This document shows positions 2,861 through 64,000 of a stretch of 64,000 nt of DNA, piece after piece. Each line of letters starts with the position of its first letter. Within the stretch, counting starts at the first letter, position 1. The translations under genes and the position numbers were made by a program. The notes below the pieces were generated by a model, which saw nothing but the letters and a program-made list of their open reading frames with translations, was not told the origin of the DNA and did no database searches. The stretch comes from Cladochytrium replicatum. Its lineage: Eukaryota > Chytridiomycota > Chytridiomycetes > Cladochytriales > Cladochytriaceae. The DNA lies in the NCBI GenBank assembly GCA_025526935.1, contig JAHLKD010000128.1, forward strand, positions 62,001 through 126,000, in the 5' to 3' direction.

Positions 2861-2886
2861 TGAACAGTCTAAACAACAATTTATAT

Positions 2887-5444: not shown

Positions 5445-6045
5445 TGGAAGTGTCCGGGTGGACAGAATCGTATTGCTAGAAACATTGATAGAGGTTAGTT
5501 GTACTGGGTAGAGATAACTGAAGTACGTCAATGAGTTGAGAAAGTGTCCGGGTGGACAGAATCCTATTGCTAGTAACATTGATAGAGAGGTTAGCTGTAT
5601 TGGGTAGAGATAACTGAAGTACGTCAATGAGTTGAGAAAGTGTCCGGGTGGACAGAATCTTATTGCTAGTAACATTGATAGAGATGTTAGTTTGTACTTG
5701 ATAGAGATCACTCAAGTACCGTCAATGAGTTAAGAAAGTGTCCGGGTGGACAGAATCTTATTGCTAGTAACATTGATAGAGAGGTTAGTTGTACTTGATA
5801 GAGATCACTCAAGTACTGTCAATGACTTAAGAAAGTGTCCGGGTGGACAGAATCTTACTGCTAGTAACATTGATAGAGAGGTTAGTTGTATTGGGTAAAG
5901 ATAACTTAAGTACGTCAATGAGTTGAGAAAGTGTCCGGGTGGACAGAAAATACATGCCTCGATGTCTGTTGTGATGCAAAATTGTTTGATACATACAAAA
6001 CTTATATTGCGTCTTCTTGGAAAGTGTCCGCGTGGACAGAAAGAA
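5445..6045. repeat. Right subterminal palindromic-unit array of hAT copy 1
   Basis: Six to seven units of 95-98 bp in one orientation, with GTGTCCGGGTGGACAG near 5450, 5547, 5641, 5738, 5836 and 5934 and a variant at 6027. They lie upstream of the transposase and inside the right terminus, mirroring the left array. Confidence 0.85.
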
Positions 6046-6233
6046 CAATAGCTTCGTTTTAGATTCTCTATCCCATCGGGTTTTACTCGGGTCTGACTTT
6101 TGACCCGAGAAGGGTTTTCCTACTGGACCCGATACCCAACCCGGATCCGACCCGAAAATTTTCCATGAAAACCCGGCACGCGGGTCGGGTACATTTAGTC
6201 AATGGACCCGGACCCGACCCAAAAGACCCTAAA

Positions 6234-6248
6234 ACCCGCCGATCCTTA
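6234..6248 (-). repeat. Right terminal inverted repeat of hAT copy 1
   Basis: Its complement is TAAGGATCGGCGGGT, one mismatch from the left end. Related right ends lie at 11336 (copy 2, more decayed) and 55608 (copy 4). Confidence 0.85.
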
Positions 6249-29588: not shown

Positions 29589-30077
29589 GCTACCCTAACG
29601 GTTCTAAAGTTGCAATCAAGGCGGGTGACCCAATCGAAATGTCCACACCGATCAACGGAGTAATTGAGATCGGTCTGTGCGGTCTGAAACTCAAACTCTT
29701 TCTGGTTCTAATGAGGTAGCACCTTGATTTAATAAATTCTTGAACAGATTTCTGTGATTCTAGTGACGTGATTGAGGTTACCTAAGTCTATCCAGCACGC
29801 AGCAGCCTCCATCAACAGTGGGGTGTCGGTAGGGGATGAAACGCTATTGACAAAAACTGTTCATTGTGTTCTCTGTGCATAATTTTCGGTACCATGACAA
29901 GGGTGCGGCCGACTTAATTGTCGATGATTACTGAATCTGTGAGCGAACTTCGTGTTATTCTAGTTACGTCATGTTTGTGACAGAGGTTTATCTAAGTCTA
30001 TCCCAGATATCTCCAACACGATCAACTTTGCAACTCTATATGAATGAATTCAATCCAACTTGGCGCGACAGAGACTC
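29589..30077. other. Intergenic between 7TM copy iii and GDSL gene 1
   Basis: No coding signal was found. It contains the 5' flank of copy iii and the 3' flank of the GDSL gene. Confidence 0.4.
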
Positions 30078-31054
30078 TTAGAAGCCAAAGTTGGCACCGA
30101 TGAAGTCAGCGATGCCGTTGGCGACGGACTTGTGAACGACGGTGGTAGGGTGGAGACCTTCCCAGCTACTGTAGGCGTCTGGGTTGGAGCAGACGGTGGC
30201 GTTGCCGGTCGGAGGGAGACCGTTGAAGCAGTCGTTGCAGCAGTGAGCCGGGTCACCGATCAGCGGGGGGTTGTAGGAAGTAGGGAGGAAGACAGTGACT
30301 GGCACCTCATACTTGAAGATCTTCACGTTGGGGTTGGCCTTCTTGAAATCGGCAACCTGGGTGTCGATCGAAGCGCCGTAGGATGCGTAGAAGTCGCCAA
30401 GCTCTTTGGGGAGGACAATGGAGAGGATCTGGGACGCACCGTTCTTGACGAGGGTGTTCCAGATGGCGGTCTGTGCAGCAGCAAAGTAAGCGCCGGTTTT
30501 ACCGAGCTTGAGGATATCGTTGTCGAAGTTGTCGTTGGCACCGACGAAGACAGTGTAGAGAATGTTCTTCTTGTTCTCATCCTGTTTTTTCAGGTAAGAC
30601 TGGAGCTGGGTGGCAGCACTGGGGACCTTCTGAATCGTACCGTCTTTGCGAAGAGGCTGTTAAAGACACAACATATAATTGTGAGTTTGCAATGTGCAGA
30701 TCAGACAGATCAATCCTCACTGACCTCGCCAAACTTGCCGCCCACCCATCCCTGAACAAGGGCATCATCAGTAGTGGCACCACCAACAGCAAAGTTGTTG
30801 ACCGCAAGCTTCTTCGCACTGGTGAGGTAGTCGAGCCAGACAGGTCCGCTCGAGAAACGGTTCTTGTAGTACGCGTTCGAGGGGATGATTGGACCGTTGT
30901 TCTTGGTGAGCTCAGCACATGCACCAGTGTCCGTCAACGAGTCACCGAAGGAAACGATCTTCTGCACCCTTGGTGGCCTGTCGATGCACTTCTCTCCTAG
31001 CACAGCGGGGGCAAACGCAAGGATAGCAGCGAGAACGGTGAAGTGCTTAAGCAT
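30078..31054 (-). CDS. Secreted SGNH/GDSL esterase-lipase family protein, gene 1
   Basis: Two exons (30725-31054 and 30078-30656) give 302 residues; the donor is a weak GTCAGT. The first ~20 residues (MLKHFTVLAAILAFAPAVLG) are a signal peptide, so the enzyme is probably secreted. Block I is FGDSLTDTG with the nucleophile Ser, block II has the Gly in FAVGGATTDDA, block III has GANDNFDN with the oxyanion Asn, and block V reads WEGLHPTT. The family acts as acyl-ester hydrolases on lipids or esterified polysaccharides; the substrate here is unknown. The usual catalytic Asp of the DxxH motif is Glu in this protein, while the second copy at 34.1 kb has Asp. The gene follows a 7TM-like gene, an arrangement repeated at 32.0-35.0 kb. 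Confidence 0.88.
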
Positions 31055-32003
31055 TGTGGAAAGGTGTTCTGCTGGTGTGCAGGAATGTGGGGGCAGTCAT
31101 TTTGTTTTAAGCGAGGCGATGTGTTTCGACCGCAGACAGCCAGTCAAAAACTCCGTAGCTCCGAGCAAAAATTTCTCCGAGTTGAGACTTTCCACGTTTT
31201 GGTTTTGGATTGAATTTGTCGCGTGTGCGGAAAGCCCAGGAAACAGTGTGGGAAAATGAGGCTCAGATCGGGAATATTGCGGTCAGGTGATATGATCAGG
31301 TCAGCTGACTCAGACACCCGCCCTGGGGTCTAAACAGAGTTTGGACTCACTCTTATGACTTGGAGGGTCGTATGCGAGGATGACAGTGTGGGACAGAGTG
31401 AGTAATCCACACCAACTCACACCGTGCAAGTATGGGATGGGTACGAACAAGTGTAGCTGAGCACCGGGCCAATAAATAGAACAGGTGGGTTCACCTCGAT
31501 TCCACAACTGCCAAAGCCCACGTTTCACGGACAAGTCCAACCATCGATGTGAAACCAATGCCCATCAGCCATCTCTGCGTAACGGGTATCCCACCTCATA
31601 CATGCTAGAGTTTTGGAGTCCATATCATTCAATATCCAATCGCTCACTCGGCCAGTTTACTGCGGACGTACGAAAGCGGCAGCCTGTATCATATCGTTAG
31701 TGGAAGAAGATCATTATAGATATTCTTGCGTACATCTCCAATACAACTTATATACTTCGCATTGAAAGGTCAATGAGACAATCAGTTTGTTTGAGACCTC
31801 GGACTTACCATGAGTAGCGCACACCAATATACTGCGTACACTTCCAGTTCTCTTGAGCAAATTTTTTATTTCGCATTCATCCGCTCATACTCACCGACTA
31901 TGGTTAGTGACGCTTGCCATCGACTTCCATTGAACCCCAACAGCAAGAGGAACTACGGCAAACCATCAGCGAACGATCAACAATCTCATAATGTTGGACT
32001 TAC
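31055..32003. other. Intergenic, GDSL 1 upstream region and 3' part of 7TM copy iv
   Basis: The last exon of the 7TM-like gene at 32004-33122 should lie here, but I could not place it. Otherwise there is no recognised feature. Confidence 0.35.
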
Positions 32004-33122
32004 GCCTCCAATATTCAGGATGCCCAATATGCACAGCAATATAGCCATCTTTCGTGTGATCTTCCTCCAAGATGCCGCCGGCGTCACGGGAAACGAGCCA
32101 GAGTTAGGTCCCCGGAAGTTGATTGTTGAGTAGTCTTTAGTGGGGATCGTGCCTGACCCATACGGCTGAGAGTTTTCCACCACTCTCACACTTTCAAATG
32201 TAGCCGGAGTTGACAATTGTCCCTTACTTCGATCAATCATTCTTCCAGGTGGCAACCTGATGTGTCTTGGGCTACTTTGAGGTGGGCTCAAGTGTGGCAA
32301 TGGGAGCGAATCCTTCGAGTCGTAGTTGACTGCGCTGGACACATCCTTCAATACCTTGACGCTTTTTGCCGCCCTTGGATCTGGTAACAATAATGTAGAA
32401 ACCCGACTCCATCGCCGTCGAAGTTTGTACAAAATCACCAGTGCGCAGATTTCGGTGGATGCTTGTACCAGTATGTTTACCGTTGATGCTTTCGGATCCA
32501 TGTTTGTACCTACCTTCGACCGTGGTAATCCAGAGAGCCGAGACGCCGAGCATTATGCGAGCAAATACAAGACCGGTTTCAAGCTTCCATCCACTTCTTC
32601 CAACCAGCGCAAGGGTAGTAGTCCCAAGGATGAGCGTGATCACGCATACAATAAGTGAACCCCATCGACTGAACTTTGGCAATAGTGACCTGTTTCGCTG
32701 GCAATCTAGTCATATTCCATTGAAGCCGGCAGTAATTGCTCACCGGAACCCCCTCTCGAAGCTAATGACCACATTGCAAGCCATCATGGGTCCACCTGAA
32801 AGATATCCTAGTGGCACCAACACTACGCACGACTGATAAGCCGCTATTGGTCGGCTGGGACCCATGACTCTCACAAGGATGTCAAGTGTGAGGAACGCCA
32901 AGTTTGGGATGGTGTGGAGAACTATAGCTATCTGCAGCTAGTTCAAAAAGACATCTTGACAACACGTAGAAGGCTCACCAGGACGAGTATGTTGATCAAC
33001 TTTGGGGATCGATAGACCTTGATCACTCCCAATGTGGTCATCGCAATTGTCCCAGGAATCACACCCAGAATATCAATCAGCAACGCATCGATGCCAATGC
33101 TCACCGACGTTGAGCATGCCAT
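32004..33122 (-). CDS. Multi-pass membrane protein, 7TM-like family, copy iv
   Basis: Exons 32979-33122, 32744-32931, 32514-32689 and 32004-32461 join in frame through GT-AG introns for 322 codons. A further 3' exon after the GTAAGT donor at 32003 is not resolved. Hydrophobic helices are LLIDILGVIPGTIAMTTLG, LINILVLIAIVLHTIPNLAF, CVVLVPLGYLSGGPMMACNV, SLIVCVITLILGTTTLALVG, LVFARIMLGVSALWITTVE, a short one around ASTEICALVILYKL, and KMAILLCILGILNIGG. A polar loop of about 110 residues separates the last two. This is the best preserved member of the local family, and helices and intron positions match copy iii. No receptor signature is recognised, so the function is unknown. Confidence 0.62.
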
Positions 33123-33447
33123 CTGCAGTGCAGAATACTGAATAGCCAATCATGATGCTTTCCAGAAGTTGAGAACTCATTAAAGTTGGATTCTTGCAAT
33201 CTTTTTCAAGTTTTTCTACATTTAGTATACCAGTCTTAACGGATCACGGCTATTTCTCTTCATGGCATTGAAGTTTATCAAACTTTCGTGTCTAATGGTT
33301 AACTGACCCTCCCCGTATCTGCTCAACTGCAGTAGAAGGACTTTGGTAATGTGGACGGATGAAAGCAGAAGCCTTGAACAATATCAGGGATAGTGTTACA
33401 GCCTGCATTTCGGATTCCGGACTTATTTCTCCAATTCAGTCAAGGAA

Positions 33448-33835
33448 CTAAGAGCAGATATGATGACGCGATTTTGGCGATGGTGAGGCAAAAGATACGA
33501 GCGAGATCACATTCATCCCAGCAATAGTGCGCCAAGATAAATTGGGTACGCTAGAAGAAAATAAAATGTTGAGCAACTCGTCGCCGAAGCCTGCCAGTGA
33601 TCCCCAGTAAACCGTAACAACAAGACACGCTTGAATGAGTGTTGGTATATTCACGTTCGACTACACTCGTTGGAAAATAAAAATGCAACGTTTGTTGAAC
33701 AGTTTAGGGGACCTGAAATTATGTTGACTGCAGCGAAAGTCATAATTGATGCTGGTGCTGCCACATTGCCCAAGAAGTTGATCACCGGCGCAACGGTGCT
33801 GATGGAATGTCCGGTTGCGCATGAAACGTAGAAGG
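33448..33835 (-). pseudogene. 7TM-like family, partial copy v
   Basis: A minus-strand segment with FLGNVAAPASIMTFAAVNI resembles exon 1 of copies iii and iv, and the piece at 33448-33654 (LIQACLVVTVYWGSLAGFG) is hydrophobic like exon 2. Nothing equivalent to later exons is found between this and the neighbouring genes, so it appears to be a 3'-truncated copy. Confidence 0.4.
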
Positions 33836-34093
33836 TAGAAACCTAGCATGAAGGTTGTTGATAGAATGTCGGCCACTCACTCTTCAGACGAGTCTTGGGA
33901 GTCGAAAGAATGCGAGTTGGAATTGACTTCTGTATTAGTGTATACTTCTCTCTAACGCACAATCATACTGCAAATGTCTGGAATCATACGCATCAAGTCT
34001 AAAACCCGATACAACCAAAAAAAAAACAGCCAAAAATGTTAGACGAAATGCAAAACAATTCGTGCAAGACTATGTCACAGGTTGCAAGGAGTG

Positions 34094-35023
34094 TTAGAAA
34101 CCGAAGTTGGTCTGGATGAACTTGGTGATGTCGTCGGCAATGAACTTGTGGACGACAGTGGTGGGGTGGAGACCATCCCAGATCAAGAACGAGTTGCCAT
34201 TACCGCAAACGGTGGCGTTACCAACGGGTGGAAGGCCGTTGAAGCAGTCCGTGCAGCACTGAGCGGGGCTGGGGGTCAAGTTGGGAGTGTACGAGGTGGC
34301 AACGAAGGCAGCGATGGGCACCTCGTACTTGAACAGCTTTGTGCCAACAGGGAGCGACTTCTGGATCTTGGCAATCTGAGCATCGACGGTTGAGCCGTAG
34401 AGAGAGTAGAAGGGGTCGAGTTCCTTGGGGAGCACGATGGCAAGGATCTGGCGTGCACCACATCCGAGGAGGGACTTCCACAGACTAGTCTGTGCGTTGG
34501 AGAAGAATGCGCCGTCCTTTCCGAGACCGAGGAGCTGGTTGTCAAAGTTGTCGTTAGCACCGACGAAGATGGTGTACAAGATGTCCGCCTTTGCCGGGTC
34601 GGGTTTCTTAAGGTAGGCCTGGATCTGTTTGTCTGCACCAGGAACCTTCTGGATGCTTCCGTCCTTTCGGAGCGGCTGAAAGCAAAACGAATATTGTGAG
34701 CAATGTGGTCGACTGACGATGCAACCTGACTGTGTTTACCTCGCCGAATTTGCCGCCCACCCATCCCTGGACAAGAGCATCCGATGTAGTCGCGCCACCA
34801 ACAGCGAAGTTGGTCACAGCGAGTTTCTTTGCGCTGGTGACATACTCAAGCCAAACCGGTCCGTTGGAGAAGTGGCTCTTGAAGTAGGCGTTCGAGGGGA
34901 TGACGGGGCCGTTGTTACGGGTGAGGGCAGCGCAAGCACCAGTGTCCGTCAAGGAGTCACCGAAATGCGAGCAGCTGTAAGGGGAGCAAGGGCAAGGAGT
35001 GCGGCAATGAATTTGATCTGCAT
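34094..35023 (-). pseudogene. Secreted GDSL esterase-lipase family protein, gene 2 (frame broken after the signal peptide)
   Basis: The probable exons are 34740-35023 and 34094-34675, with the intron at the same codon as in gene 1 and a better donor, GTAAAC. The protein starts MQIKFIAALLALAPLTAA, a signal peptide. The catalytic blocks GDSLTDTG, FAVGGATTSDA, GANDNFDN and WDGLHPTT are all present. Between the signal peptide and block I about 14 codons found in gene 1 are missing and the frame shifts near 34975, so the ATG-initiated frame ends soon after. Alternatives are an unseen upstream exon spliced at the CTTACAG just before this point (it would restore the frame but remove this signal peptide) or a sequence error. 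If unspliced it is a pseudogene. Confidence 0.7.
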
Positions 35024-35070
35024 GTTTGTGATATGGGTTTGGAAACAGGCAGATGGGAAATAGAGCCCTG

Positions 35071-35080
35071 ATTTAAATAA
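35071..35080 (-). promoter_or_regulatory. TATA-like element upstream of GDSL gene 2
   Basis: The AT-rich stretch ATTTAAATAA lies about 50 bases upstream of the ATG at 35023 and reads TTATTTAAAT on the coding strand. The position fits a core promoter, but this is motif evidence only. Confidence 0.35.
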
Positions 35081-35504
35081 AGTGGAAGGGCTCCGTGATG
35101 TTTCTTTCACGGATTCTAAATTTATCATCATCAGCCCCACATGCATCAAATTTAGTGCGGTGTGGCTGGACTATAAATTTTTTATCCCGGTGCGGAACGT
35201 GATCGGGTATCAGGGCACGGGCAGAAGGAGGGAGTGGATTCTGGATGAGCTTTGAGACGTGGTTGTTGCATTAACACTCAATGCCTTGCCTGGAACACAT
35301 AGGTTTTTCTTGCCTTGCTCCCTGAAACAGTGAAGTCCGATTGTTTCAGCAGCCAATTCTTGGCGTTTTGCCATTTATTTTTTTAGAATCCGGGGCAAAA
35401 ACCAGTGCATCAACCGCTGTCCAAGTGCTGTCAGCTTTTTCCAGTCGCTGCTATCAAGATCTTTGATGTTTTTGTTGATGTTGTTAAATAACTCAGGAGA
35501 CAGT
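35081..35504. other. Intergenic, GDSL 2 upstream and Nol12 downstream
   Basis: No further gene or repeat is seen. Confidence 0.4.
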
Positions 35505-36269
35505 CTACCGCTTTGTCTTCTTCCTTCTTTTCACAAGGGCGGACTTCTTGGAACCACCAACCTTCTTTCGAACTGTTTTTGGAGCTTTCGAATCCTTTTT
35601 CTCAACGGGATTCCTACTCTTCGCTGTCCTCTCCATGAGTTTCTGCATCTCCTCCACAGCATCCTCATCATCCATCGTCACCATGATTCGCGTGGTATTT
35701 TTCTCATCTTCCAACGCGACCACCACATCCGCTTCATTTCCCTTATCATCCTCCTCCACATCATCGCTCTGCTCGTTGGAATCCACATCGCTGCTACCCC
35801 CGTCAATGTCACCAGTTTCATTTCCGTCTCTTCTTCGCTTCCTCGCCTTTGGAACTTCGTTGTCAGCGTTTGCAAGCAAGTGTATCTTTCCACCCCTAAT
35901 CGCTTCAATCCTTTCCAACGTCTCGTTAGCACGCTTCCATCCTTCCTGTTAGAATAAAACCAGTACTTTATTCATCATTGCGTCAAGGAATAAATGTATA
36001 CTCGAAATTACCGTGTCCTTCCGTGCTGCTCGCATCTCTTTCTTCTCTTCTTTCTTTTCAAGCTCCGCCCGCTCCTGGGCCTTCTTCTTACGGTCAAGCT
36101 TTCTCTTCCTGAATCCAGTCACGAATTCGCTAGTAAACTAATCAGCAAAGAGTGCATTGTGCTGCTGATATATAGCTTACTGTCGCTGCTTCTCGTCGTA
36201 CCCGACATAGTCCACCCTCACCGGTCGCCCGCCTCCCGACTTCTTTGGTTTTCTACTGAAATTTGGCAT
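35505..36269 (-). CDS. Nol12/Rrp17 family rRNA-processing protein
   Basis: Exons 36181-36269, 36012-36129 and 35505-35945 join in frame with GT-AG introns of 51 and 66 nt, for 215 residues. The N-terminus (MPNFSRKPKKSGGGRPVRVD) leads to the family hallmark YDEKQRHEFVTGFRKRKLDR, equivalent to the REYLTGFHKRK block of human NOL12. A highly charged helix (KKAQERAELEKKEEK) follows, then an acidic middle and a Lys/Arg-rich C-terminus (KKSALVKRRKKTKR), typical of nucleolar proteins. The element TTRIMVTM near residue 165 matches the conserved VTVTT-type strand of the family. In yeast, Rrp17 is a 5'-3' exonuclease acting on pre-60S rRNA; the same nucleolar role is inferred. Confidence 0.85.
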
Positions 36270-48141: not shown

Positions 48142-48223
48142 GGACAGAGAGGGATTCGAACCCTCGCATCCGGAGATACTACGACCTGAACGTAGCGCCT
48201 TAGACCAACTCGGCCATCTGTCC
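48142..48223 (-). tRNA. tRNA-Leu, anticodon CAG
   Basis: The minus strand folds as a class II tRNA of 82 nt: acceptor stem GGACAGA/TCTGTCC, D arm GCC/GGC, anticodon stem CTACG/CGTAG with loop TTCAGGT (anticodon CAG, reading CUG), a long variable arm, and T arm GAGGG-TTCGAAT-CCCTC. There is no intron and no encoded CCA. CUG is read as leucine here by the identity elements visible, so a serine-CUG code is not suggested. Confidence 0.95.
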
Positions 48224-48228
48224 TTACC

Positions 48229-48550
48229 ATGTTTTATCCCTCTCTCTCTCTCTGTCTCTTCTCTCTCTCTCTCTGTGTCTCTTTCTCTCTCTCTCTCTGT
48301 GTCTCTTTCTCTCTCTCTCTCTGTGTCTCTTTCTCTCTCTCTCTCTGTGTCTCTCTCTCTCTCTCTGTGTCTCTTTCTCTCTCTCTCTCTGTGTATCTTT
48401 CTCTCTCTCTCTGTGTCTCTTTCTCTCTCTCTCTCTGTGTCTCTTTCTCTCTCTCTCTCTGTGTCTCTCTCTCTCTCTCTCTGTGTCTCTTTCTCTCTCT
48501 CTCTCTGTGTCTCTCTCTCTCTCTCTCTGTGTCTCTCTCTCTCTCTCTCT

Positions 48551-48623
<73 letters not shown>

Positions 48624-48625
48624 TC
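48229..48625. repeat. CT-rich microsatellite with (CT)n-GTGTCTCTTT higher-order units
   Basis: About 400 bp of CT repeats carry a regular GTGTCTCTTT or GTGTCTCT break every 24-28 bases, then a pure CT run from about 48553. It sits between the 5' side of the tRNA-Leu gene and the 5' end of a LINE. Long frames on both strands here are artefacts. Confidence 0.95.
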
Positions 48626-48677
48626 TCACAAATCAATACCCTAAACTATCAGCTGCCCTCCTGCTGCTGTCTCTGCC

Positions 48678-49400: not shown

Positions 49401-52400
49401 ATGTGGACTTTTCGTTCTGGAACCTTCAACTGTAGAGGTTTGCCTCTGGATTTTTCAGATTTACTTGCTTGGCTTGTTACTCATCAGTTTCATTTTTTAG
49501 TTTTAACAGAAACTCATAAATTAACTTTAGACAGTGTTTCTTCTGAGTATTTGTTGTTTGATTCTCGTCCTCCGCCAGACGCTCCTTTGGCATCTGGTGT
49601 TGCTCTTCTTATTAACCCACATCGTTGCAGTACTTATCAATTTAGGTTGATTGCATCAATTCCTTCTGGGTTTGGTTTGTGGTTTCGGTTTTGTCAGGTA
49701 GTGATTGGTGGATTTTATTTTCCTCCACGTTGGACTGCGGAAGACTGTTTGGGTGCATTATCTGCTTTTCCTCAATTTGTTTCGAATTCGGATACACCAG
49801 TAGTTTTGATTGGTGACTTCAATTTTAGAACTCAGAGCACTGGTGATCGTGTTACTAATGCCTGTGCCAGAGCACTTCTTCCTTTTATTACAGCCCACTC
49901 ACTTTCATTGGTTGTCCCAGCTTCTTCTTCAGCTCGTCGCCCAACTTTTCGTTCCCACTAAGAGAGTTCAATTATTGATTTGTTTTTTGCTTCTACTTAT
50001 GTGACAGCTTCCTCTTATTTAGTGCATGATCAACCCCAGTCTATGGCTCCCCATCCTTCAGACCATTTTGCAGTGACCTGTTCATTTTCTTTAGCTGGCC
50101 CAGATCCTCAGGCCACTGTGCCTCCTCCTCTACCTTCTTGGAATCTCCGATTGTTAAAGGATGAAGTTATTCGTAAGTCGCACAGAGAAACTGCTAAGAT
50201 TCTGCTTCCTCCAACATCAGAGGCACTAACAGCAGCATTGGAACCACTTCAGGTCCCTGTGGGGACTTCTCTTTCTCGTGCAGTGGCCCAGGGAGCAATT
50301 GATTCTGCATTTCAAATTATAGTTGATTTTGTTGAGGCAAGCAGCAGTTCTTACATTGGGACCCCCAACACCTCAGTCGTAGAGCACCAGCGACCACTCC
50401 TCTTGCCCCCTGAGATTGCTTTGTTGCGTAGTAAGGCTCGTTCAGCATTCCGTGACTATTATTCCCTCTTGCACCACAATTCTTCTGACCCTCTTCTTCC
50501 TTTTCTAAGAACTCGCCAACGTGATAGTCACAAAGCATTCAAATCAGCTCTGAGATCACACAGGCGTAAGACAAAAGCAAATTTTTTTGATGACCCTAGT
50601 TTCTTCATCAGTGCCTTCTCTTCTGAAACATGTGTCTCATGCTCGGCGCTGTGCTAACTTTCGTACTTCAGCTAATGGTTTAGATTTCGATCCTCAGTCT
50701 TTAGCCAAATATGCTGATCATTTTGCTAGTGTCTACAATGCTCAGACTGCTGACCCAGTTTCACCTTCAATTGTTCTGTGTGATTTTCAGCTGCCATTGG
50801 ATGTTGAAGCTTTTGTTCTAGCTATTAGGGACTGCCCTTTGGAGTCTGCCCCGGGTCATGATCGTCTGCCTGCAGAACTTTATCGCCCAATTTCAGCTAT
50901 TCTTGCTCCATTGTTCTTGCAACTTTCTCAGTCCATTTTTCGTAGTAGTCTTACACCCACTTCATGGAATCTTGGGCTTTTGCACCCAGTTTGGAAGCAA
51001 CTTCTTACGCTTGGTGACATTACTAATCATCGCCCCATTACTCTTTCGTGTGTTGCCCGAAAATTTTTGAGCGAGCTTTGTTGCCACATCTTTATTCTGC
51101 TATCACGTCTCAACGCCCACTTGATGCTGCCCAAGCGGGATTTCAGTCACACCGCTAAAGAATGGAATGTGTTTTTGGTCTTCAGGCATGTATCTCCTGT
51201 GCGTCTAATGCCAAGGTTCCTTGGGTTGCTGGGCTTTTAGATATTCAAGCAGCTTATGACACCACAAATCGTGCAATTCTTTGGGCTGAGCTTCTTTCTA
51301 GGGGAGTACCGTTGCCATTTGTTTTTGTTTGAAGTCTCTGTTTGATTTTTGTTCTTCCAGAGTGGTTGTTGCAAATTGTTTTTCAGATGCTTTTGATTTG
51401 TTTAGAGGTTTGTTTCAAGGTTCTGTTCTCAGTCCACTTCTCTATATCACTTTTCTTGATCCTCTACCAGGGCTCCTCCGACCATTTGCCCCACCTATAA
51501 CACTCTTTCATCCTGCCAAACCACGATATAATTCTTTTCTATTTGCAGATGATTTGGCCTTGTTTGCACTTACTTTGGATGCTATGCAGGTTCTTCTCTC
51601 TGTTTGTGACCAGTTTGCCCAAGCTCGTGGTTTTTCTTTGCTCCTTTGAAGTCTGTGATTCTCACAAGAATTCCCATTCGTGCTAATTCGCTTCATGGTC
51701 AAACTCTGCCTGTCAAGCCTTCATTTCGTTATCTGGGTTGCTTTTTTGGAGATACTGGATTTGATGTTTTTCACTGACTATTTCCCATCGACTTGCCAAA
51801 GCGCGCCAAAGCGCGTGCAGCTTCTTTTGCTTTGCTTTCTTTTTCAAGGATGTTTGGTTCTCATTCTCTGGTTGTGGTTTGTCATTTGTTTTTGTCTTTT
51901 ATTCGACCTACGTTTGAATTTGGTTTATATTTTATTCTTCCCTCTGTTGCTGTTTGCAAACAAGTTCGGACTTTTATTCACCAAAGTTTTTGTCGATTTC
52001 TTCGCCTTTCATTTTCCACTTCAATTGCTGGGGTTTTGCTGTTTTTTAATTTTCCTGACCTTCAGTTTCGGCTTCAATATCTGCAGTTTCAGATGTTTCA
52101 ACGTTGGCTGGATGATGATGCCCCTGATATGGTTCACTCTATGTTGTCATTCTTTCTTCACCAGGGAAAGCACTTTAGTTGTTCTCCTGTCCCTTTCAAC
52201 AATCACTTCCTCTTCCCGGCTGCAAATGTTGTAGTTCCCAAACCTTCTGATGTTATCGCAAATCACTTTCACCAAGTAACCTCATCTGCCTATGGTTCTA
52301 TAGCTGCTAGCTTTGTTCCCCTTGCATCTGCACACCCTCATGCGCTAGCAATTGCTCCTCCATGCTTCCCTATTTCGTCAATCTTGAGGCTTCTGCAGTA

Positions 52401-52716: not shown

Positions 52717-52964
52717 CGGTTCCTTTTTACATTATTTATTACTCACCTGTTTTTTTTGGCACCTTAGCAGTATCTGACGGGTAGCCACAGGTTTGAGTTT
52801 ACATTCTCTGTTTTGCTTTGTTGCTTTTCCTTATGCTGCGCGCGCTTCCCTATGTGCTGGTCCATGACCATCTTGTAAGGCACTTTGGGTGTTGTTTTTT
52901 GTTATGCATTGTATGTGCAAAATAAATAATAATATTGTTAAAAAAAAATTAGTCTCTCTTGTTT

Positions 52965-53240: not shown

Positions 53241-53813
53241 AATCAATATGCTGAAATAATTATAATAATTATATTTAGAAATATGTTCAAGAATATAACG
53301 TTAAATCAGGTTTTACCAGAGACTACAGCAAAGACCGAGATTATGTTCATCACAATGGTTAAAAGTTGTGTTCGTAATTAGACAGAAGCTCTGATCTTTC
53401 ATTCAGTGATGGATGCAGCCGTCCACCACAAATGCTAAAAGTTCTGTCCATCTCTATGGTTGAAGTTCTGTTCCTCACTATGGTGTAAAACTGGACGGTG
53501 GTCTTAGAGTAGCTCACATTCAGCAAAATTTACTTGATCGATATAGTTTTGCAAACAAGACTCTGCTTTTCAAATTTCAGTCTGTTCGCAATTGGAAACC
53601 AAAAATAGCTCTCTTTATTAAATCTCAATAATTTCAACCAACAGATCTTAATGAGTAGGTCAATATCATTTTACGCTCACTGTATGAAGATCATTTTCCC
53701 GTCAGGTTCTCAGCCCCGTCCCACACCGTACTTCCTCAGATTCGATACCAAACATTTCCACCAAATTGTCCTCATTACAGAACCCTCATCTGCGACCTGC
53801 ACAGACCATCTTA
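53241..53813. other. AT-rich spacer ending at an inversion breakpoint
   Basis: No gene was recognised. Two phrases (CACAATGGTTAAAAGTT and CTCTATGGTTGAAGTTCTGT) repeat loosely at 53350-53490. The block ends abruptly at 53813 against hAT copy 4. Confidence 0.4.
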
Positions 53814-55270
53814 ATCCACTAATGCCCTGAACATGCGATAGATAGTGGCAGACGTACTTAGCGAATTATTGTGCCGTATCCAGTTTCCGAGCAAAATGTG
53901 CACCCTAAGAAGAGTAAGGCTGCTCCGAGCACTGCTACTTGAAGTTGATATTCGGCTTGAGCGGTCGTCTGATTCAACAAATATGGGCCGTAAGTAAGAA
54001 CTCATTTCGGGAGAGGACTTCGTAGTTAACGTTGACCAACTTGATTGATGGTGGAAGAGACGGCAATTTAAGGTCATAAATAACCTCATTGATCTTATGC
54101 ATCTGGAAGGAGATACCCTGGATGACCTCTTTCACCAAAAGGATAGCCGTACAATGGTGCTGCTGCAGGCTAAGCAATGCAAGGGAACTCGTTGGAGAAC
54201 TGGTTCAATGTACCTTTGGAATTCTACCAATCCCCTTGATAGCCGACGATATGCTTATTGGGCCGCCTGTTGATGTTGGCGCTGCAGGTGCTGCAGCTTC
54301 TGAATGACCAGCCTGTCGTTTCAGAGCAGCAAGCTCTCCCTCCAGGCGGTCACACGTGATTTCCATTGTGAAATCTCCTGGGAAGCTGCCTGCTTCTCCC
54401 TTTCCATTGCAGCGGTGATCTCCCTGAATCTTGCTAGCTCTTTGTGCTCGCCGTGCTGAATCAATGCACCCGCCTGCCCAATTCATCAATGAGAGCCTTC
54501 TCTCGCACTTCTGCTGCCATGCGGGTCCTTCTCTCATTCATTGCAGTCTCTTCAAGATTTTGTCATGTTCAACAGTCGTTCTGACTGTTTGAGGACATGT
54601 TTGTCCTTTCACGGTCCTCATCTGCTCGTTTGATGGTCACTTGGAACTCTTCAACCTTTGCAGTGACAGGCATTCCTCTGTAAATGCCGTACTTGTGTCC
54701 CTGCCGCCTGTAAAAGTCCAGAAATGTTGTTTCCTTCTGAAAGGAAGAGCTTTTCAAGCACTCCATACGATAGGCGTTTGCTGCTTTTATGAACTCCGTT
54801 CGTCTACTGCATTCATTGTGAATTTCATTCAGGGCTTGACGAACTAGCTTGCTGTCAGAGTTAAGTCAGTCGATCAACCCTTGAAGAACAAATCTTGGGC
54901 CGCATTCATCACGATTTGTTTGGCAGTTGCTGATGAAGTCCTCCGAGTCGTAGCTGTGGCGCTTGCTTTGATTTTTGATACGAAAGTCGTATGTCTGAAG
55001 CAGGACAGAGTCTGTCGATGAGCAAATAGTCAGCATCCCCTTTAGTACCACGTCGTGCCGGTTTCTTTGAAGGAGCTGTCGATTTGACATCAAGGCCTAC
55101 TGCTGCTTCTTCCACTTCAGAACCCGATCCCAGAGATGTTTCAGGTGCAGTCACCAGTTCTGCACTTGATTCTCTTTCAGATGATGGTTTGGATTGTTTC
55201 AACGCTCGCTTCTTGTAGTTCAAGGTATGGTGTTTGTACTGTTTGTCGTGGGAAGATACAGGGGTGTTCT
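53814..55270 (-). pseudogene. hAT-borne second gene, copy 4 (broken by inversion and frameshifts)
   Basis: Pieces at 54909-55200 (N-terminal KKRALKQSKPSSERESSAEL), 54569-54766, 54205-54350 and 53811-54177 match the copy 1 protein closely. Several single-base frameshifts are present. The C-terminal ~85 codons are on the other side of the inversion (57816-58065, plus strand). Confidence 0.75.
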
Positions 55271-55608
55271 TAGCCGGAATGTTACAGGAATGTATGTGAT
55301 AATATTTCCCTGACACTATAGTCCTCTACCCGATCTGAAAATAATAATAAGCTAGGGAAGAAACTGGCTAGTAACATTGATAGAGAGGATTCTGTCCACC
55401 CGGACACTTTCTCAACTCATTGACGGTACTTGAGTCAGGTTTTACTCGGGTCTGATTTTTGACCCGAGAAGGGTTTTCCTACTGGACCCGATACCTGACC
55501 CGGATCTGACCAGAATATTTTCCATGAAAATCCGGCACTCGGGTCGGGGTATATTTGGCGAATGGACTTGGACCCGACCCGAAAGACCCTAAAACCCGCC
55601 GATCCTTA
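53814..55608 (-). mobile_element. hAT copy 4, part 1 (transposase-less derivative)
   Basis: It matches copy 1 from about 554 to 2130, then a single palindromic unit (about 55380-55430), then directly the right terminus ending at 55608. The transposase and nearly all repeat units are missing. The other end of the same element is at 57816-58364 in the opposite direction. Together they give a 2.34-kb element carrying only the second gene. Confidence 0.85.
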
Positions 55609-55616
55609 CTGTCTGC
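55609..55616 (-). repeat. 8-bp target site duplication of hAT copy 4 (first)
   Basis: CTGTCTGC directly after the right terminus; its complement is GCAGACAG. Confidence 0.85.
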
Positions 55617-56340
55617 AACACCAGGGTCAGAAGCAACCGATTTAATTCCAGCAAATGTCCCCCTACAAGAGCGTCGCATTGCCTTGTTCAAGTTGCTGGA
55701 AATGCACGTGGAGTACGCAATAGAGTACATGCAAGCTATTGAACGAGATATTGCTGCTTGGGACACTGTCGGTATCAGTGCCAGCTTACAGCAGTGTCGC
55801 CAAAACTGGATCTTTGGGGCGACCACGGAAGGAGGTGCCACTCGGACTGGTGTATGCCCATCAGAGCCAAGGGTACAGCATGACGTAGATATCAGATTTG
55901 CTTGGTGTGAGTCGGAACACCATTCACAACCATTTACGCTACACAACCCCCTGACTCCAGCTTCGGCAGTATCAGACAGAGAGCTTGACAGAATGATTCG
56001 TTACGCACGATCAGCAGTGGGGTATTGCTCACACTTCGGTGCAAGCATGATTCAAAGTAAGTTCTTGACTTGAACATAGCTTTCGAAAATAATACTAACA
56101 AGCATTCAAGGTATTTGGCTGGAACATTCCGCATTCGTGTTCCTGTGAAAGGATCAAAGTCTCGAACCGCGGTGTAGACCCTGAGGCAACTGCAGCACAT
56201 CAACACAGGGCAATTTTAAGCCGAGTGTACCGAGTGAAAGAAGTCATGTCACTTTGGCATGTTGATAGGAATCACAAGCTTAAGTGTTGGCGATTTGTAA
56301 TTCACTGCTGTATTGTTGGATATTCAATTCACTGCTGTAT
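55609..56340 (+). pseudogene. Integrase-core (DDE, WHxDxNHKL type) transposase-like gene, C-terminal part
   Basis: The plus strand codes LSATPGSEATDLIPANVPLQ onward to about 56073, then after a probable short intron GVDPEATAAHQHRAILSRVY and SLWHVDRNHKLKCWRFVIHC. The last motif matches the LWHIDGNHKLIRWRFVIHG signature of integrase-core proteins frequent in fungal genomes; its Asp is the first catalytic residue. The next residues are duplicated (a 27-bp direct repeat at about 56300-56355). The gene then ends at the LINE A junction at about 56357. The N-terminal part is on the opposite strand at 58373-58662. Confidence 0.65.
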
Positions 56341-56356
56341 TGATAGATATTCCAAC

Positions 56357-57815
56357 ACTCAAAGAATTTTCTATCGATGTTGGTTAAAGTGATGGGGCGG
56401 TACTGACTAATATTACCAATGGAACCATTATTCTTCCAAACAGGTAACAACAAGCCAGCATTCCAGGCAGAGGCTGACAAACCTGAACGGAAATAGCATT
56501 TGAAAGTTGAACAAAAAGAATAGCAACGTCAGAAGCTAACGGCTTAAACAACTCAGCTTGGGCTAGGAGCAGAGTTGTTTGGGGAAGAACGAATAGCACA
56601 AACAAAGTCACTAAAACCAACTGACGAAGAATCATTCAGTGCATGTAGACGAACGTGTTCTGCAGTGGCGGAGGATTGTGCAAACTGAGTCTGGTAAACG
56701 GAAGGAAAGTGATTGCAATAATGAGATAAAGAGGCAGGATCAGACAATAAACCACTTGCAGCAGAATGCCGTTGATGACACCTGCACGCAGTGGAAAGAA
56801 CTTTGCTAACCTCGGTTAAAGAACTAGGAGAAGAACTAAACATATTGTCACCAGAAGCCTCTCAAGCTCGCTGAGAAGAGACCAAGTACAAAAAGCTTTG
56901 AAGTGCTCACGCGATAGCCGGTCACACTCCAATTGACAATACTCAACTAAAACTGGGTCAGGATCATCACAGAAGAAACAACTAACCCTAATTGCTTATG
57001 AGCAAGTAAGTAGCTCCGTCGCAAGGCCACGAAATGCGGCGGCAACAATGGCAGGGCAGGGCGACGATGAACTAAACTGGGAGGTCCATGACACAAGCAG
57101 TGCACAAAGTAACAAAGGACAAAATAATATTTAATGCAGAATCAATACATCCCTGTGCAACATCCACAGACATTTGGGGAAGGGTGGGAGCTTCTAAAAT
57201 TGGACTGAGCGCAGCATTGACATCAGCAAGGGTGGGATCAAAAAACAAATGTCCCACTTCCTCCATTGCTTGAAAGACAGCAGGTTGACGCAACAGATGA
57301 GCAGCCCAACACTTGTAGATGGGAGCAGCAGAGGGAGCGCCGGCATTGGGAGGAGCAAAAGAAGAAACAGTGGTAACCGGAAAATGGTCAGAAGCCCAAG
57401 GCATAAACTCGCCGTCGGCAAGACGACTATGAACAATGTAAGAAATAGGATCACATTGAAGCAGAGGATTGACAAACAACAAATCGAAATGGAGTCACCA
57501 TTGCGAGTAGAAATGTGGGGTTGTGACAGGAAAGGTGCTTAACTAGAGAGAAACTAGCAGCAGAAATAAATTGCTTAAACAACCTACCCTACCATTTGAA
57601 GAATGATCACCAGTAGCTAAAAAACAGGAATTGAAATCGCCCAACAAAGAGCAGGGCACGGAGACGACGGGACATGTTGAGGAAGCAAAGCAATAAACCT
57701 TCAAGGAAGGGGTCCTGAGCAATGCCACACGGAGGCAAATAATACCCTCCAACCAAAAGCCCACAAAATTTAAACCATAGAGAGGTGCCACCAGAACTAG
57801 AAAGCACTTGGACAA
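56357..57815 (-). mobile_element. LINE A, second copy, internal fragment
   Basis: The minus strand matches LINE A from the endonuclease (GTSLWFKFCGLLVGGYYLPP at 57790, with SDHFPVT at about 57400) to the early RT domain (ISQYRPITLTNIDRKFFE at 56365). Both ends are lost. The 5' side stops exactly at the inversion breakpoint 57815/57816. The 3' side stops at 56357 inside the integrase-like remnant. Confidence 0.82.
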
Positions 57816-58364
57816 GCATATCCTTCTGAGTGGCTAAGGTTCTGGACGGCATACATCAGGCATCTTTCGTCCATAACGCTCCCTGAGGTGGATTGGAATC
57901 CTTGGAAGACAGGTTTAGCCAAGGATTTCATGCTTTCAAATGACGACATTGATCGGTTCATCAGGACTGGGTTGGCGAAGGACGTAACCAGTGGTGGATG
58001 GGACCTCTGACGATATGAACCAGATACAGAAGCTGATTTGGGCTGTTCCACCTATCAACTTGTGATTGTTCAGTGGAGTTTTGTTTCTTTTTACGATAGT
58101 GTTTCTAAATAACACACTGTCCACACAGACGCAAAGTGTTCATGTAAATATCCGTGGTCTAACTCAACGTTCAATCAATCCTCTCCTGGGCAGCAAAAAC
58201 CCGGCGGGTCAGGGTCGGGTACGGGTTTCTACCACTTCGGGTCAGGGTATTCCATTTGTACCCGTCAGTGACCCGGCGGGTCGCTGGAAAACACGACCCG
58301 ACACAAAGGGTTTGATGTGGGTCGCCACTGAAACCCGGACCCGACCCGGACCCGCCGAACCTTA
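57816..58364 (+). mobile_element. hAT copy 4, part 2 (left end, inverted relative to part 1)
   Basis: It matches the complement of 8-553 of copy 1: the last ~85 codons of the second gene with a stop at about 58063-58065, then the GGGTCGGGT-rich subterminal DNA and the terminus CCGAACCTTA at 58364. Confidence 0.87.
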
Positions 58365-58372
58365 GCAGACAG
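58365..58372 (+). repeat. 8-bp target site duplication of hAT copy 4 (second)
   Basis: GCAGACAG directly after the left terminus, identical to the complement of 55609-55616. Confidence 0.85.
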
Positions 58373-58662
58373 TGTGATGGCATTGTCCCTAAGCTTTCCA
58401 ATGAGCGTAATATGTGCATCAACAATCATGTCGAGATTGTTCAGATTTGAAAGTCGTCTGACAACAACACTGTTTATCAACACAGTGTGCTGTGCAAACA
58501 TGGTGTCAAAATCCATTGAGACTTCGCACTAAGCTCGTCGTATGGATCTCCGCCTGCTTCGTAGATATTAGCACCGATCATTGGCGTATTCGAATCTGGT
58601 GCAAGTTGAGCAACCAGTTCAGCAATCAAGGCAACTCCTCTGACAGTGCTGGCGATTTGCAT
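58365..58662 (-). pseudogene. Integrase-core transposase-like gene, N-terminal part
   Basis: The minus strand reads MQIASTVRGVALIAELVAQL and on to GDPYDELSAKS, then after a one-base frame change MDFDTMFAQHTVLINSVVVR ... GKLRDNAITLSA, which ends in the target duplication. The C-terminal half at 55609 starts with the same LSA codons, so the two pieces are one gene. The frame change near 58520 may be a frameshift or a small intron. Confidence 0.55.
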
Positions 58663-59294
58663 GGGGCTGTGTGGTGTGAAGTCATGTGCTTTTGTGATTG
58701 ATAAGACCTAGCATCATGATTCAGAGTTGTCCATGGTGACTTTTTTATAATATACAGAAGTTAAATCCAACATCGTTCGTGGCGTGTTAAAGACACATGT
58801 GATAAATAAAACACACATTCTTGTGCATCCCAAATAAAGTGGATGTGGCAAGGTATGACACGTTTTGTTAAATTGAGAATCTCATTAACACAACAAGAGC
58901 TAACATAGGACATAGGGGCTGTTCAATTTTTGTGCGAGAAAGCTGCCATAGTGGCTCGCATTAGCAGGCAATGATCTCGAAAGGTCTATCAGTGTAAAGA
59001 CTACGTTTCTCTATAGCACTTCTTCGTTGCCATTTATCTTTTGACCCTTTTAACGTATTCAGACATCATTTAATCAGAAATATGTAAGTCGAATCTTGAG
59101 ACAGATATTCAGGCAAATGCATTCAACGTCTGTATTTACTACAAGAGTGTTCTGTAGGAGCCTAAACTACCAAATTCTGAGTAAATTTGGCAAGAACGGA
59201 ACTAAGTACTGTTGCTTTCGTATATACAAAGGGTATGCCGTACCAGATTGGGTTCTGGCAAGAAGGTGAAATGAAAAACAAAAATCTTAAATGT
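58663..59294. other. Intergenic, no recognised gene
   Basis: AT-rich, with only short frames. It includes the 3' flank of the kinase gene. Confidence 0.45.
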
Positions 59295-60729
59295 CTACTC
59301 TCTGCCCCAAGAAACAAAAAGATGCTCCCACACCTTCTCAATGTCCCAGCGCTTCGCAGCATCTACCTCCAAACACCCTTTCAAGAGCTCGTCCACGTTC
59401 CTCACACCACCGGCAGCATCCGCACCCAGTGCGTTCTTTGCAGCTGCGATCAGCCCTTCGACGTCCCACCGTCCCTTCAGTATTGACATCTGAAGCCTGG
59501 GAAAGTACTCGTCCTCAAACGGCAATCCACCGGTGATGATGGCGTGGAGAACACATCCTAGCGCCCACACGTCGGCTTTCGTCCAAAAAGCGCCGTTGCG
59601 CCGTCCGGATCTTCTGACGACCTCGGGCGGACAGTAATGCAACGATCCAGCAAAGATATCTGTATCCTCGTCCTCGACTTCCAGTACGGACCCATATGTC
59701 ATGTCGAGGTTCTGCTGCTGCTGCTGCTGTTGGGGCGATGAATCCAAGCCGACGAGTTCATCGAGTTCCGCTACCCGCGCCGAAAGCCCGAAATCCCCAA
59801 GCTTGGCCACAGCCTCCCCACCCGCCCACTTCAGCAGCACATTCTCGAGCTTCAAGTCGCGATGCACGACCCCGTTCTCATGCATGTATTTAACCCCCTC
59901 CACGATCTGCGCGAAAATTTTCGAGGCTTGTTTCAGACTCATGGGGTTATCCGTGGCCTCGCTGAGAAGCGAAAACAGCGATCCGCCCTCGCAGAGTTCC
60001 GAAACGATCATGACGACGTCGGGGAGGTCCATGACTTCGATCATGCGCGCGATGTTGGGGTGGTCCAATGTGCGCCAGATTGCACATTCGTGGCCCAGGA
60101 TCCTCCAGACGCGTTCGCCCGAGACACCCCTCCTTACGCTTTCGGACGCGGTGGCCATGGACGGTGTGGGCGTCGCCGGAGGAAACGTGAAGGACACCGT
60201 GCTGCCGGCCATGATCCCGAGACCCTCGCTTCCACCTGTCGATGGATCACCGCTGGGCCCACTCCCGATGTTGTCGAGGAAATCTTTGCGGACGATTTTG
60301 ACCGCGACGCGCTCGTTGGATTCGAGAGAGTTACTGGGGTCACTGAAATCCGGCATTTCGAGGGGTGCGCCGGGATCTCCACCAGGCCTGAAAATGTCAG
60401 AGGTACTGCTGGCCCAGGTCTGATCTAAAGGTGTTTCTTCTCCGCTACGCAAGTTCAGACTGTCCGTCGAGTCGTCCGGGTACTGGATCCCCGTCATTCG
60501 CAGACTGAGTGCCAGTTGCGATTCCGTGAGCACGGCAGCTGAATAAACCTTTGAAAACGCTCCAGACCCGATGAGCCTGTCGATCACGTAGCGACCGATC
60601 TGGTCCCCCTTTGCATATTCTCCGTATACTAGACAAAGCCCATCGGAATCAGACATTTTTCAATTTGAAAAGGAAATTCTTCGAAATCTTACCGATGGCG
60701 TCTGGGTTTGTCCTGTCTGCTATGGCCAT
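59295..60729 (-). CDS. Serine/threonine protein kinase
   Basis: Exons 60693-60729 and 59295-60628 join in frame for 456 residues starting MAIADRTNPDAI. A Met inside the intron (60656) also opens the frame but would replace this N-terminus. Kinase motifs are the Gly loop IGSGAFSKVY (about residue 33), the invariant Lys in VAVKIV (about 123), VHRDLKLENVLL, KLGDFGLS, an SLHYCPPEV version of APE, and DVWALGCVLHAIITGGLPF. About 75 extra residues, acidic and Ser-rich, separate the Gly loop from the Lys. A second acidic/poly-Gln insert lies in the activation segment between DFG and PPE. The closest general group is CAMK/SNF1-like, but I cannot assign an orthologue. A Ser/Pro-rich coding stretch directly upstream may be its N-terminal regulatory region. 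Confidence 0.85.
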
Positions 60730-60731
60730 CA

Positions 60732-61800
60732 GAAAGAAACGGCAGGTGAGGGAGCAACATCCCTGTAGCTTTCTGCGTTGACTGGGCTTCCACCACCAGG
60801 GGAAAGTGGCCCGCTCATAAAGGGAGATGTAGCTGATGGGGAGCGCATCATTTTCGGGGACGAAGGACCAGGGCCGACGGTGAACGTCACTCTGGAAGGC
60901 GATGTGGCGATCATGGAGTTTCTGCGCGATGTACTGTGACGGATCCGAATGGGAGATGTTGCGGAGTGGTGTGCATGGCGTGGAGAAGATGCATTTGAAG
61001 GGTCGATCGGCATGCCTGGATATGAAGGAGTTCGGCGTGGGGCAACGGTAGCAGGCATGATGGGGTACGATTGGACCCTGTGAGGCGGGATCACGGTTGC
61101 GGCAGACTGTGAAGTGGAAGGCGAGTGTGACAAATGGAGAGCCTCCGGACGAGGACGAGAGTGATGATGATGATGATGATGATATGATAGTGTGTGTTGG
61201 GGCAGTAAACGGAGATGTTAGCACACTCGATTCAGTTTTAAGGATATCCTGTGGCAGACTGGTGGGCTGGTTTTCCTCGTGAGGGTCTACAATAATCGAT
61301 GGAGGTGGAGAGGCGACTTTACTTTCAACAGCTGTGTCGTATGACTCGGTTTGTTTAGCCTCGACTTCGTGCCGAACGGGTGGGACCGCTGGAGCAGACT
61401 TAGCGAAAGATTCAGGACCATTTTCAGTGTTGCTGTTCGCACTGATGGTTCTGTCCCCCACACCTGGAGAGCTGGTGCTCCGGGGAAAGAATCGCTGCCA
61501 TATGTGGGGCTGAGTTTCACCTTCGCTGCTGCTGCGAAGAGCGAATGGGGACGAAGAAGCGGCGACGGAGGAGTCTTTCTGCGAACTCTGGGAATTTTCA
61601 GCCTGTCGTCTCTTCGAGGTCAGGAACGGGAAGAGCGAGGCGAGAGTAACTGCGGGCTGGTGAGAGGTAGGGAGTGAGCGGGCGACTCCGAGAGCGAAGC
61701 AGACGAGCGAGACAGGTCAGTTTGAGACGAGCGCTGCAGCATGGCATGCTGCCCCTGTGGATTAGCAGGTTCGGTGGCCCTCATGCGATTCTTTTGCAAC
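60732..61800 (-). CDS. Ser/Pro-rich coding stretch, probable upstream part of the kinase gene
   Basis: Protein-like, low-complexity minus-strand sequence runs in three successive frames. They are about 61620-61800 (MRATEPANPQGQHAMLQRSS), about 61140-61650 (FLTSKRRQAENSQSSQKDSS to EVEAKQTESYDTAVE) and 60729-61133 (ATSPSRVTFTVGPGPSSPKM). The frame changes near 61650 and 61135 show no good splice sites. The last frame ends with a TGA that overlaps the kinase ATG (TGATG). It may be a disordered N-terminal extension of the kinase with sequence indels, or a separate decayed gene. Confidence 0.35.
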
Positions 61801-61921
61801 ACGGAGATAAGAGATCAATCAGCGCGTAGCGAAAATTTGATTTTTGAAAGAGTTTATTGTTGTTTATGGGCTATTGATCGGAACGGGGCGAGAATCTGTC
61901 CCGCCGGATGGTTGGAGATTC

Positions 61922-62971
61922 TCACTTGTTGGAGGACTCGAGTGCTGGCATGTCTAGATTATTAAATTATTATTAGGACCGGGCTGTACTACCCAAACAA
62001 CTCATGTCTCACCTTCGTCGTCGCTGTCCTTCTCATCGTCCTAGAGCGAACGTCAAATTGATTAGAACACCACATGATCTGATCTTGGATCACTTACAAA
62101 GTTCTGACCGGCCATCATGCTGTCAAAGTCCATGCCGCCCATACCTCCCATGCCGCCCATACCGCCCATACCGCCCATTCCACCCATTCCCCCCATGCCG
62201 CCCATGTCTCCACCGCCGAACTGTGAGAAGTCCATGTCGCCGAAGGGACTGGCTCCACCAGCACCAGCAGCGGCGTCATCGTCTTCATCCTCGTCCTTCC
62301 ACTTTGCAAAGTCGGTCTTGAGCCAGTGCACTTTGCCGCTGTTCTTAAGCAGCCTTGGCCAGTAGCTCTGGTCTTTTTCCTTCTTCACAATCACAAAGTA
62401 TATGCTGCGTGCAGTCACAGACTTTTTGGACTCCTGTTGTTTGGTTATCAGCCTTCCAAATTCAAATTATTTTCAGTATTTGTAGTTACCTCTGGGCTGA
62501 CTTCCTTGAAGAAATCGATGGTCACGGCGTACTCTTTGCCTTCCGACGTTCCGCTGAAAGTGAGCGCGTCGGCAGTGAGATTGAGAACGGGGTTCTCCAC
62601 GTCCGGGACGTTGAACGTCAGGTAGATCTCGTCGGTGCGCTGGGCCCAAAGGACCTCGGGGAAACGTGTCGTTTGTCTGTAGCAACAGAGATCAAGAAGA
62701 ATCAATCGGTCAATTGCGAACCAACAAAAAAAAATGCTTGTGATTCTGAGCTCAAACAATTGGGTGGCGATTTTCAACAGGAGGCAAGAGAGAGCAACAG
62801 AGCAGAAGAAAACCGTTTACGTTGCAAACACCGACCCACCAGCATGGGAGTGGCAACCAACAGCCGGCACGACATGGCGTTAATGGACCAAAAGGCCGTA
62901 AAGATGAACGACGATGAAAGACGACGATAAGGAGCGGAACAGAGAGATTGTACGTACGCTGCAGTCATCAT
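61922..62971 (-). CDS. Hsp90 co-chaperone p23 (Sba1/Wos2 family)
   Basis: Exons 62958-62971, 62490-62676, 62098-62433, 62013-62040 and 61922-61953 join in frame to 198 residues. The CS domain starts TTRFPEVLWAQRTDEIYLTF and contains ADALTFSGTSEGKEYAVTID. The hallmark SYWPRLLKNSGKVHWLKTDF (WPRL-type motif) and FAKWKDEDEDDD follow. A Gly-Met repeat of about eight GGM units leads to DFDSMMAGQNFDDEKDSDDE and the end DMPALESSNK, close to the MPDLE tail of animal p23. p23 binds the N-domain of ATP-bound Hsp90 and slows its ATPase, stabilising client complexes. The last two tiny exons (28 and 32 nt) were placed by this C-terminal match; without the last intron the protein would end GET. Confidence 0.93.
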
Positions 62972-64000
62972 CGCTCTGTGGTGATTGCCGATTTGTCGTC
63001 TGCCAGAAAGTCCAACAATTTCAATATTCAATCCAAGCCCGTTGAAGAAAGCGCGCGCCGTCAAGAGTTTCTAACACGTTCCAGAACCTTTTTCGCTATT
63101 TTGTAGAAAAATAAGGTCCCGGCTCGGCTCAGTGTTCAGTGTGCATCGGTCGTGCTTTGTGCATGCATCTCTCCATTGACGATGTGATTGTCGCCAATCG
63201 CTCGATCATACTAAATTGACCCGTACCCAACTTTAACCCCACACACAATGAGTCCATGAGTTGTCCTTCAAACGTTTCCGATGCGTTCGTACCCTGAACA
63301 GCTCTGGTGAACGGCGGCCCCAACGGGTGTCACCGCAGATCTATCCACTTTTCCGGAAGAAGAGTTGACAACAACGATGTCACAAACGTCCACCGTTGAT
63401 CTCGCCTTCGTTGGTGTATTTACATTGCTTGTTGGACTGGTGAGAGATACAAAACACACACCTAGTTCATGCCCGTTGAAATTGACGGCCATGCAGTGAA
63501 ATAGGGCGTGTGGCTGTCTGGACTCTGGTTTGCGAATTTGAAGATTCCTGGTACATGTTCGCAGTGTAGCGTTCTAGTGATGGCGGGAATGATGTCTTGA
63601 GACAGGCATTTCTGGAGGCACCGACGTCGTGCTTGTCCGCTGTTTCGCTCTCGTCGTGTCGTCGCTTCGATCATGGGTGTGTTGGCAGGGTAAAGTGCGC
63701 CAACGAACCTCATATGGGGAATCCTCATCTCGTCATGATGAAAATCAGAAACAGCTGTGCGACAAAATCAACAGCGTTGTCCTCTGTATGATCGCTGTGT
63801 TTGGAGCTGTCCGACTCCTTGCGTTTGGAGCTGCGGAGATGGAAATGGGAGCGATGACTATGCTGACGCGATCGATGCGCTTGGCATGGCTGAGGTGACT
63901 CTCATGGCGGGGTACTGAGGGGACGCTGAACTGTGGATCGTGATTCCGTGAGATGCGGGTTTTAGTCTTTCACTTGCCGAACTTGCTTGTGTTCTGGAGT
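62972..64000. other. No recognised gene
   Basis: This holds the 5' flank of p23. Frames up to about 96 codons exist on both strands, but none has a recognisable motif or intron pattern. Confidence 0.4.

Follow-up and report, generated by a model that had tools for sequence, protein, structure and literature searches.

Copy 4 of a hAT transposon family in Cladochytrium replicatum lies in two oppositely oriented parts, an arrangement that very probably arose when the element inserted and a two-break inversion with non-homologous end joining later split it. The locus provides a base-resolved record of a small inversion in which a transposon, its target duplication, a paralogue of the empty site and a second repeat bear independently on the junctions. 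The window, that is, the whole 64,000-nucleotide stretch of DNA analysed here, corresponds to C128:62001-126000, and searches covered the 50.5-Mb genome in 198 contigs. The relevant features, named according to the preferred explanation, are as follows.

53421-53813, plus strand: dispersed repeat "X", partial, cut at 53813 by the inversion
53814-55608, minus strand: left-terminus part of hAT copy 4, inverted; its reverse-strand end is TAAGGATCGGCGGG
55609-55616, minus strand: 8-bp target duplication, first copy; GCAGACAG when read on the reverse strand
55617-56325, plus strand: original left flank of the hAT element, now inverted; 3' part of a gene-like sequence
56355-57803, minus strand: LINE-like repeat fragment within the inversion, truncated at 57803
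57804-57815, minus strand: 12 bp of repeat X (TTGTCCAAGTGC) stranded beyond the inversion
57816-58364, plus strand: right-terminus part of hAT copy 4, original orientation, ending ...CCCGCCGAACCTTA
58365-58372, plus strand: 8-bp target duplication, second copy; GCAGACAG
58373-58953, minus strand: original right flank of the hAT element, uninverted; 5' part of the gene-like sequence whose 3' part is at 55617-56325

An earlier reading made from the sequence only had placed two opposed parts of copy 4 at these coordinates, and alignment to copy 1 showed them to be exact, the end coordinate of 58372 in that reading taking in the target duplication. Copy 1 from its base 557 matches the window from 53814 onwards, and window 57816-58364 corresponds to copy 1 from base 556 down to base 7-8 on the other strand. 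The two parts, 2,344 bp in total, meet at 556|557 of copy 1 with neither gap nor overlap. The proposal that flipping 53814-57815 seamlessly rejoins the element was borne out by copies 1 and 2, which are continuous at that base and read ...TTAGTGGAT|GCATATCC... with no bases between. The 8-bp duplication that had been reported was also found as described, with GCAGACAG at both element ends (55609-55616, as the complement, and 58365-58372). Both termini of copy 4 therefore carry the same duplication, inverted in its present orientation; by arithmetic, eight bases would agree at a given position by chance with a probability of about 1.5e-5. The further statement that no base was gained or lost stood for the hAT junction and failed at the outer breakpoint, where about 2 bp are missing.

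It had been allowed that other copies might naturally end at the same points, which turned out not to be so. In 26 of the 30 fetched hAT loci, the sequence continues for 20 bases or more to either side of the join; three others, in C128, C157 and C29, represent copy 4, and the remaining one (L012) extends 18 bp past the join until a separate insertion interrupts it. All 27 fetched loci other than copy 4 are thus continuous at the join base. With up to two mismatches allowed, a genome-wide pattern search found the joined 23-mer 300 times (146 + 154) and the broken left junction three times, and the controls gave no hits.

The hAT label is supported by both a transposase domain and target duplications. 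Dimer_Tnp_hAT (PF05699) was detected by Pfam in the copy 1 ORF 2887-3450 (minus strand; E 2.3e-20), so the family has a hAT-type transposase through copy 1, whereas copy 4 is without that region. Short terminal inverted repeats, TAAGGATCGGCGGG and TAAGGTTCGGCGGG, are present at the two ends. Among six other elements with both ends visible, the 8-bp target duplication was exact in three (L024, L025 and L027) and mismatched in three (L022, a short diverged element in L054, and copy 1 of the window); duplications of the length expected for hAT elements are thus found in copy 4 and some intact members, matched by a single GCAGACAG at an empty site in C19. The part of copy 1 at about 2162-6075, which contains the transposase region, has no counterpart in copy 4 beyond a short remnant, and copy 4 is therefore a non-autonomous, internally deleted derivative. 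The sole remnant of its missing middle is 50 bp of a 97-bp family minisatellite, at 55386-55435. Reduced length is likewise seen in L024, L025 and L027 (2.7-3.6 kb vs about 6.2 kb).

The outer breakpoint falls in repeat X. Besides the three copies of the locus, at least 15 relatives of 53421-53813 match up to the query end at 53813 (best 40 of 340 candidates scored), and all four fetched X relatives (C7, C27, C59 and C3) continue with AC and then TTGTCCAAGTGC, C7 with one mismatch. TTGTCCAAGTGC is the reverse complement of window 57804-57815. Since the relatives of X run on into the 12 bp now located there, the outer breakpoint is likewise reciprocal, with about 2 bp (AC) probably lost at it or before the inversion. 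This estimate of the loss comes from a gapped pattern of X with 0-4 free bases, which has 14 exact places (control, 0): all 14 have AC between the halves, whereas the window is without AC at the X junction. The 12 bp belong to X and not to the LINE, since all 27 fetched LINE relatives have a different sequence at this position. The LINE-like fragment itself, 56355-57803, shows 89-93% identity to at least 37 other places (best 40 of 700 candidates scored). RVT_1 (PF00078), a reverse transcriptase domain, was found in window ORF 13362-14378 (minus strand) of a related LINE copy, and endonuclease domains were found in window ORF 49401-49961 (plus strand); both fit LINE-like repeats. Pfam at E up to 0.05 gave no family for ORFs 55618-56073 and 50587-51240 (plus strand) or 57072-57482, 55479-55946 and 62062-62418 (minus strand).

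The original target of the hAT insertion could be reconstructed from C19. The flank 55609-56354 has four genome matches (four candidates, all scored), namely, the three inverted copies and C19, where it aligns to 149184-149892 on the minus strand with 86% identity. The other flank, 58365-59400, aligns to C19:149885-150450 on the plus strand with 83% identity, and the two alignments share exactly 8 bp. C19:149184-150450 reads ...TGTTGTTGCAGACAGTGTGATAGC..., with both flanks in the uninverted order, one GCAGACAG and no hAT element. C19, which is a diverged paralogue (83-86%) and not an allele, thus holds the unoccupied target, ordered as in the uninverted window; because it joins the two flanks, they belong together. 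The hAT element landed in gene-like sequence, since a 249-aa open frame of C19 (L061:2962-3711, minus strand) spans the empty site and an integrase core match (rva_4, PF24764, E 8.1e-13) was obtained for a frame next to it; the 249-aa frame itself gave no Pfam match. The search with flank 55609-56354 was also the sharpest test for an uninverted copy, and it returned only the inverted copies and the hAT-less C19. No uninverted locus with X, the LINE and hAT was found in the assembly, and the ancestral state was therefore assembled from separate relatives; in the other searches for such a copy, the best 40 each of 857, 700, 681 and 340 candidates were scored, so that absence there means little.

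Together, these results point to the following course of events. A 2.34-kb non-autonomous hAT element inserted into the integrase-like (rva_4) gene-like sequence, duplicating GCAGACAG; this insertion and its duplication are directly evident from the empty site and the two duplication copies. Two double-strand breaks separated by about 4 kb would have followed, one cutting the hAT element between GGAT and GCAT, at a distance of 549 bp from its right end, and the other cutting repeat X. Non-homologous end joining would then have put the intervening 4,002 bp back in reverse orientation, losing nothing at the hAT junction and about 2 bp (AC) at the junction with X. The junctions can be read base by base; we infer the two breaks, their repair by end joining and the relative timing of the steps. 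Two breaks with end joining fit best because both junctions are reciprocal, exactly on the hAT side and 2 bp short on the X side, and because extended homology between the breakpoints is absent: within ±200 bp, we found only chance-level matches of 7-8 bp (best E 1.8). Two double-strand breaks followed by non-homologous end joining are given as an inversion mechanism in an excerpt of PMC8225341, and the present case resembles the inversions described there in the absence of extended homology, the rejoining and the loss of a couple of bases on one side. It differs in that one break lies within a transposon whose other copies and target duplication allow a base-by-base reading. The event is ordinary in kind and is more strongly supported than by the evidence first put forward for it. 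No function is evident for the inversion, which splits an element without a transposase region.

Ectopic recombination was also considered and was unsupported, as inverted homologous repeats were absent at both breakpoints (±200 bp each). The Galileo inversions attributed to this process in an excerpt of PMC2775673 likewise have a transposon at an inversion breakpoint; unlike those, the other breakpoint here has no second inverted homologous copy.

The breaks might have been made by the hAT transposase, which would have cut a cryptic end-like site, with the ends then mis-joined. The outer breakpoint lies directly after CTTA, the last four bases of the element, a match noticed post hoc and by eye and expected by chance about once in 256; we regard this origin of the breaks as very unlikely.

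A reversed-ends (alternative) transposition, in which two broken hAT pieces move into the gene together by the ends that face each other, inverting the intervening segment, is very improbable, even though by our own reasoning it predicts the same order of parts, the inverted 8-bp duplication and the empty site. Maize Ac inversions of this kind carry 8-bp duplications at their junctions, with element termini at the breakpoints, in the excerpt of PMC8225341, and the present locus resembles the Ac/fAc case described there in that hAT ends with matching 8-bp duplications flank the inverted piece. Unlike in that case, the breakpoints here lie inside the element and in another repeat and not at element ends. 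The duplication at the termini fits reversed-ends transposition, whereas the reciprocal internal junctions are unexpected: under this mechanism, breakage occurs at the ends of an element and at its target site, and nothing obliges the inner faces to match each other. That the internal hAT breaks abut without gap or overlap and that the outer break joins X to its own next 12 bp would both be coincidences, and we set this mechanism aside because the hAT faces and repeat X both fit. The inversion proposed by the sequence-only reading held up, but its two signs alone were insufficient to fully exclude reversed-ends transposition; the C19 empty site pairs the two flanks, and the rejoined repeat X establishes a reciprocal outer breakpoint. 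An inverted 8-bp duplication at hAT ends is thus not in itself proof of alternative transposition.

An assembly error, with the segment lying the other way in the real chromosome, is extremely doubtful. Such an error is suggested by a suspicious switch of LINE copy in C128 near 52.9 kb, but the left junction is identical in C128, C157 and C29, and the inversion is also present in the latter two, whose shared upstream sequence departs from that of C128. Moreover, an inverted repeat of usable length is absent within 200 bp of the two junctions. The right junction is identical in C128 and C157 and slightly different in C29 (GGACCAGCTATCC vs GGACAAGCATATCC), which may reflect unpolished sequence. 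Over 54.1-60.4 kb, the three copies differ by 3-6 substitutions per pair, with 55 gap columns in a 6,329-column alignment, and they are 99-100% identical over 60.7-63.9 kb; C128 and C157 stop at the same bases in a CAG-rich stretch, whereas C29 continues. The three copies may represent one locus assembled more than once and are not countable as three independent alleles.

The LINE-copy switch in C128 relative to C157 and C29 lies at about 52860-52960 of the window. C157 and C29 show no substitutions over 52.3-55.0 kb; relative to both, C128 has 15 substitutions and an 11-base indel over 52.3-52.86 kb and a single substitution over 52.86-55.0 kb. C128 and C157 are 94.5% identical over 50.4-52.4 kb, and no near-identical copy of window 30000-36000 was found in C157 or C29 (all 11 candidates scored). 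C128 may be misjoined inside the LINE, or the haplotypes may differ there, and the left part of the window perhaps does not truly adjoin 53-64 kb. In either case, all three contigs carry the inversion, which is located past the switch. A 4-base indel at 53990-53993 distinguishes the assembled copies; what first looked like four substitutions at 53.9 kb proved to be an artefact at the edge of an alignment, with this indel in their place.

That two separately truncated hAT copies became neighbours by chance is scarcely conceivable even in a genome crowded with the family (at least 268 matches, with the best 40 of 857 candidates scored, and the 300 pattern places), as it is contradicted by the exact complementarity at 556|557, the common 8-bp duplication and the shared C19 empty site.

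Several further features were observed in and near the window. Copy 1 (window 8-6248) has end flanks, GGTGCAC (seven bases visible) and GTCCAGGT, that do not match, and since they differ it may be a recombinant of two copies. It carries arrays of the 97-bp minisatellite in both orientations and, alongside the transposase, a second hAT-family gene, ORF 308-1555 (minus strand, 415 aa), within which the 300-place 23-mer sits; this ORF gave no confident Pfam match (Rab11-FIP3 sub-threshold, E 0.013). Five near-perfect 42-bp tandem repeats occupy window 19134-19343 in the minus-strand ORF 19082-19459, and a minisatellite with 8- and 14-bp spacing at window 48194-48649 overlaps long ORFs on both strands. 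C137:58171-61330 is a diverged relative (64-81%) of parts of window 60700-63900, possibly an old segmental duplicate, and a hAT copy lies near it at C137:64308-65913.
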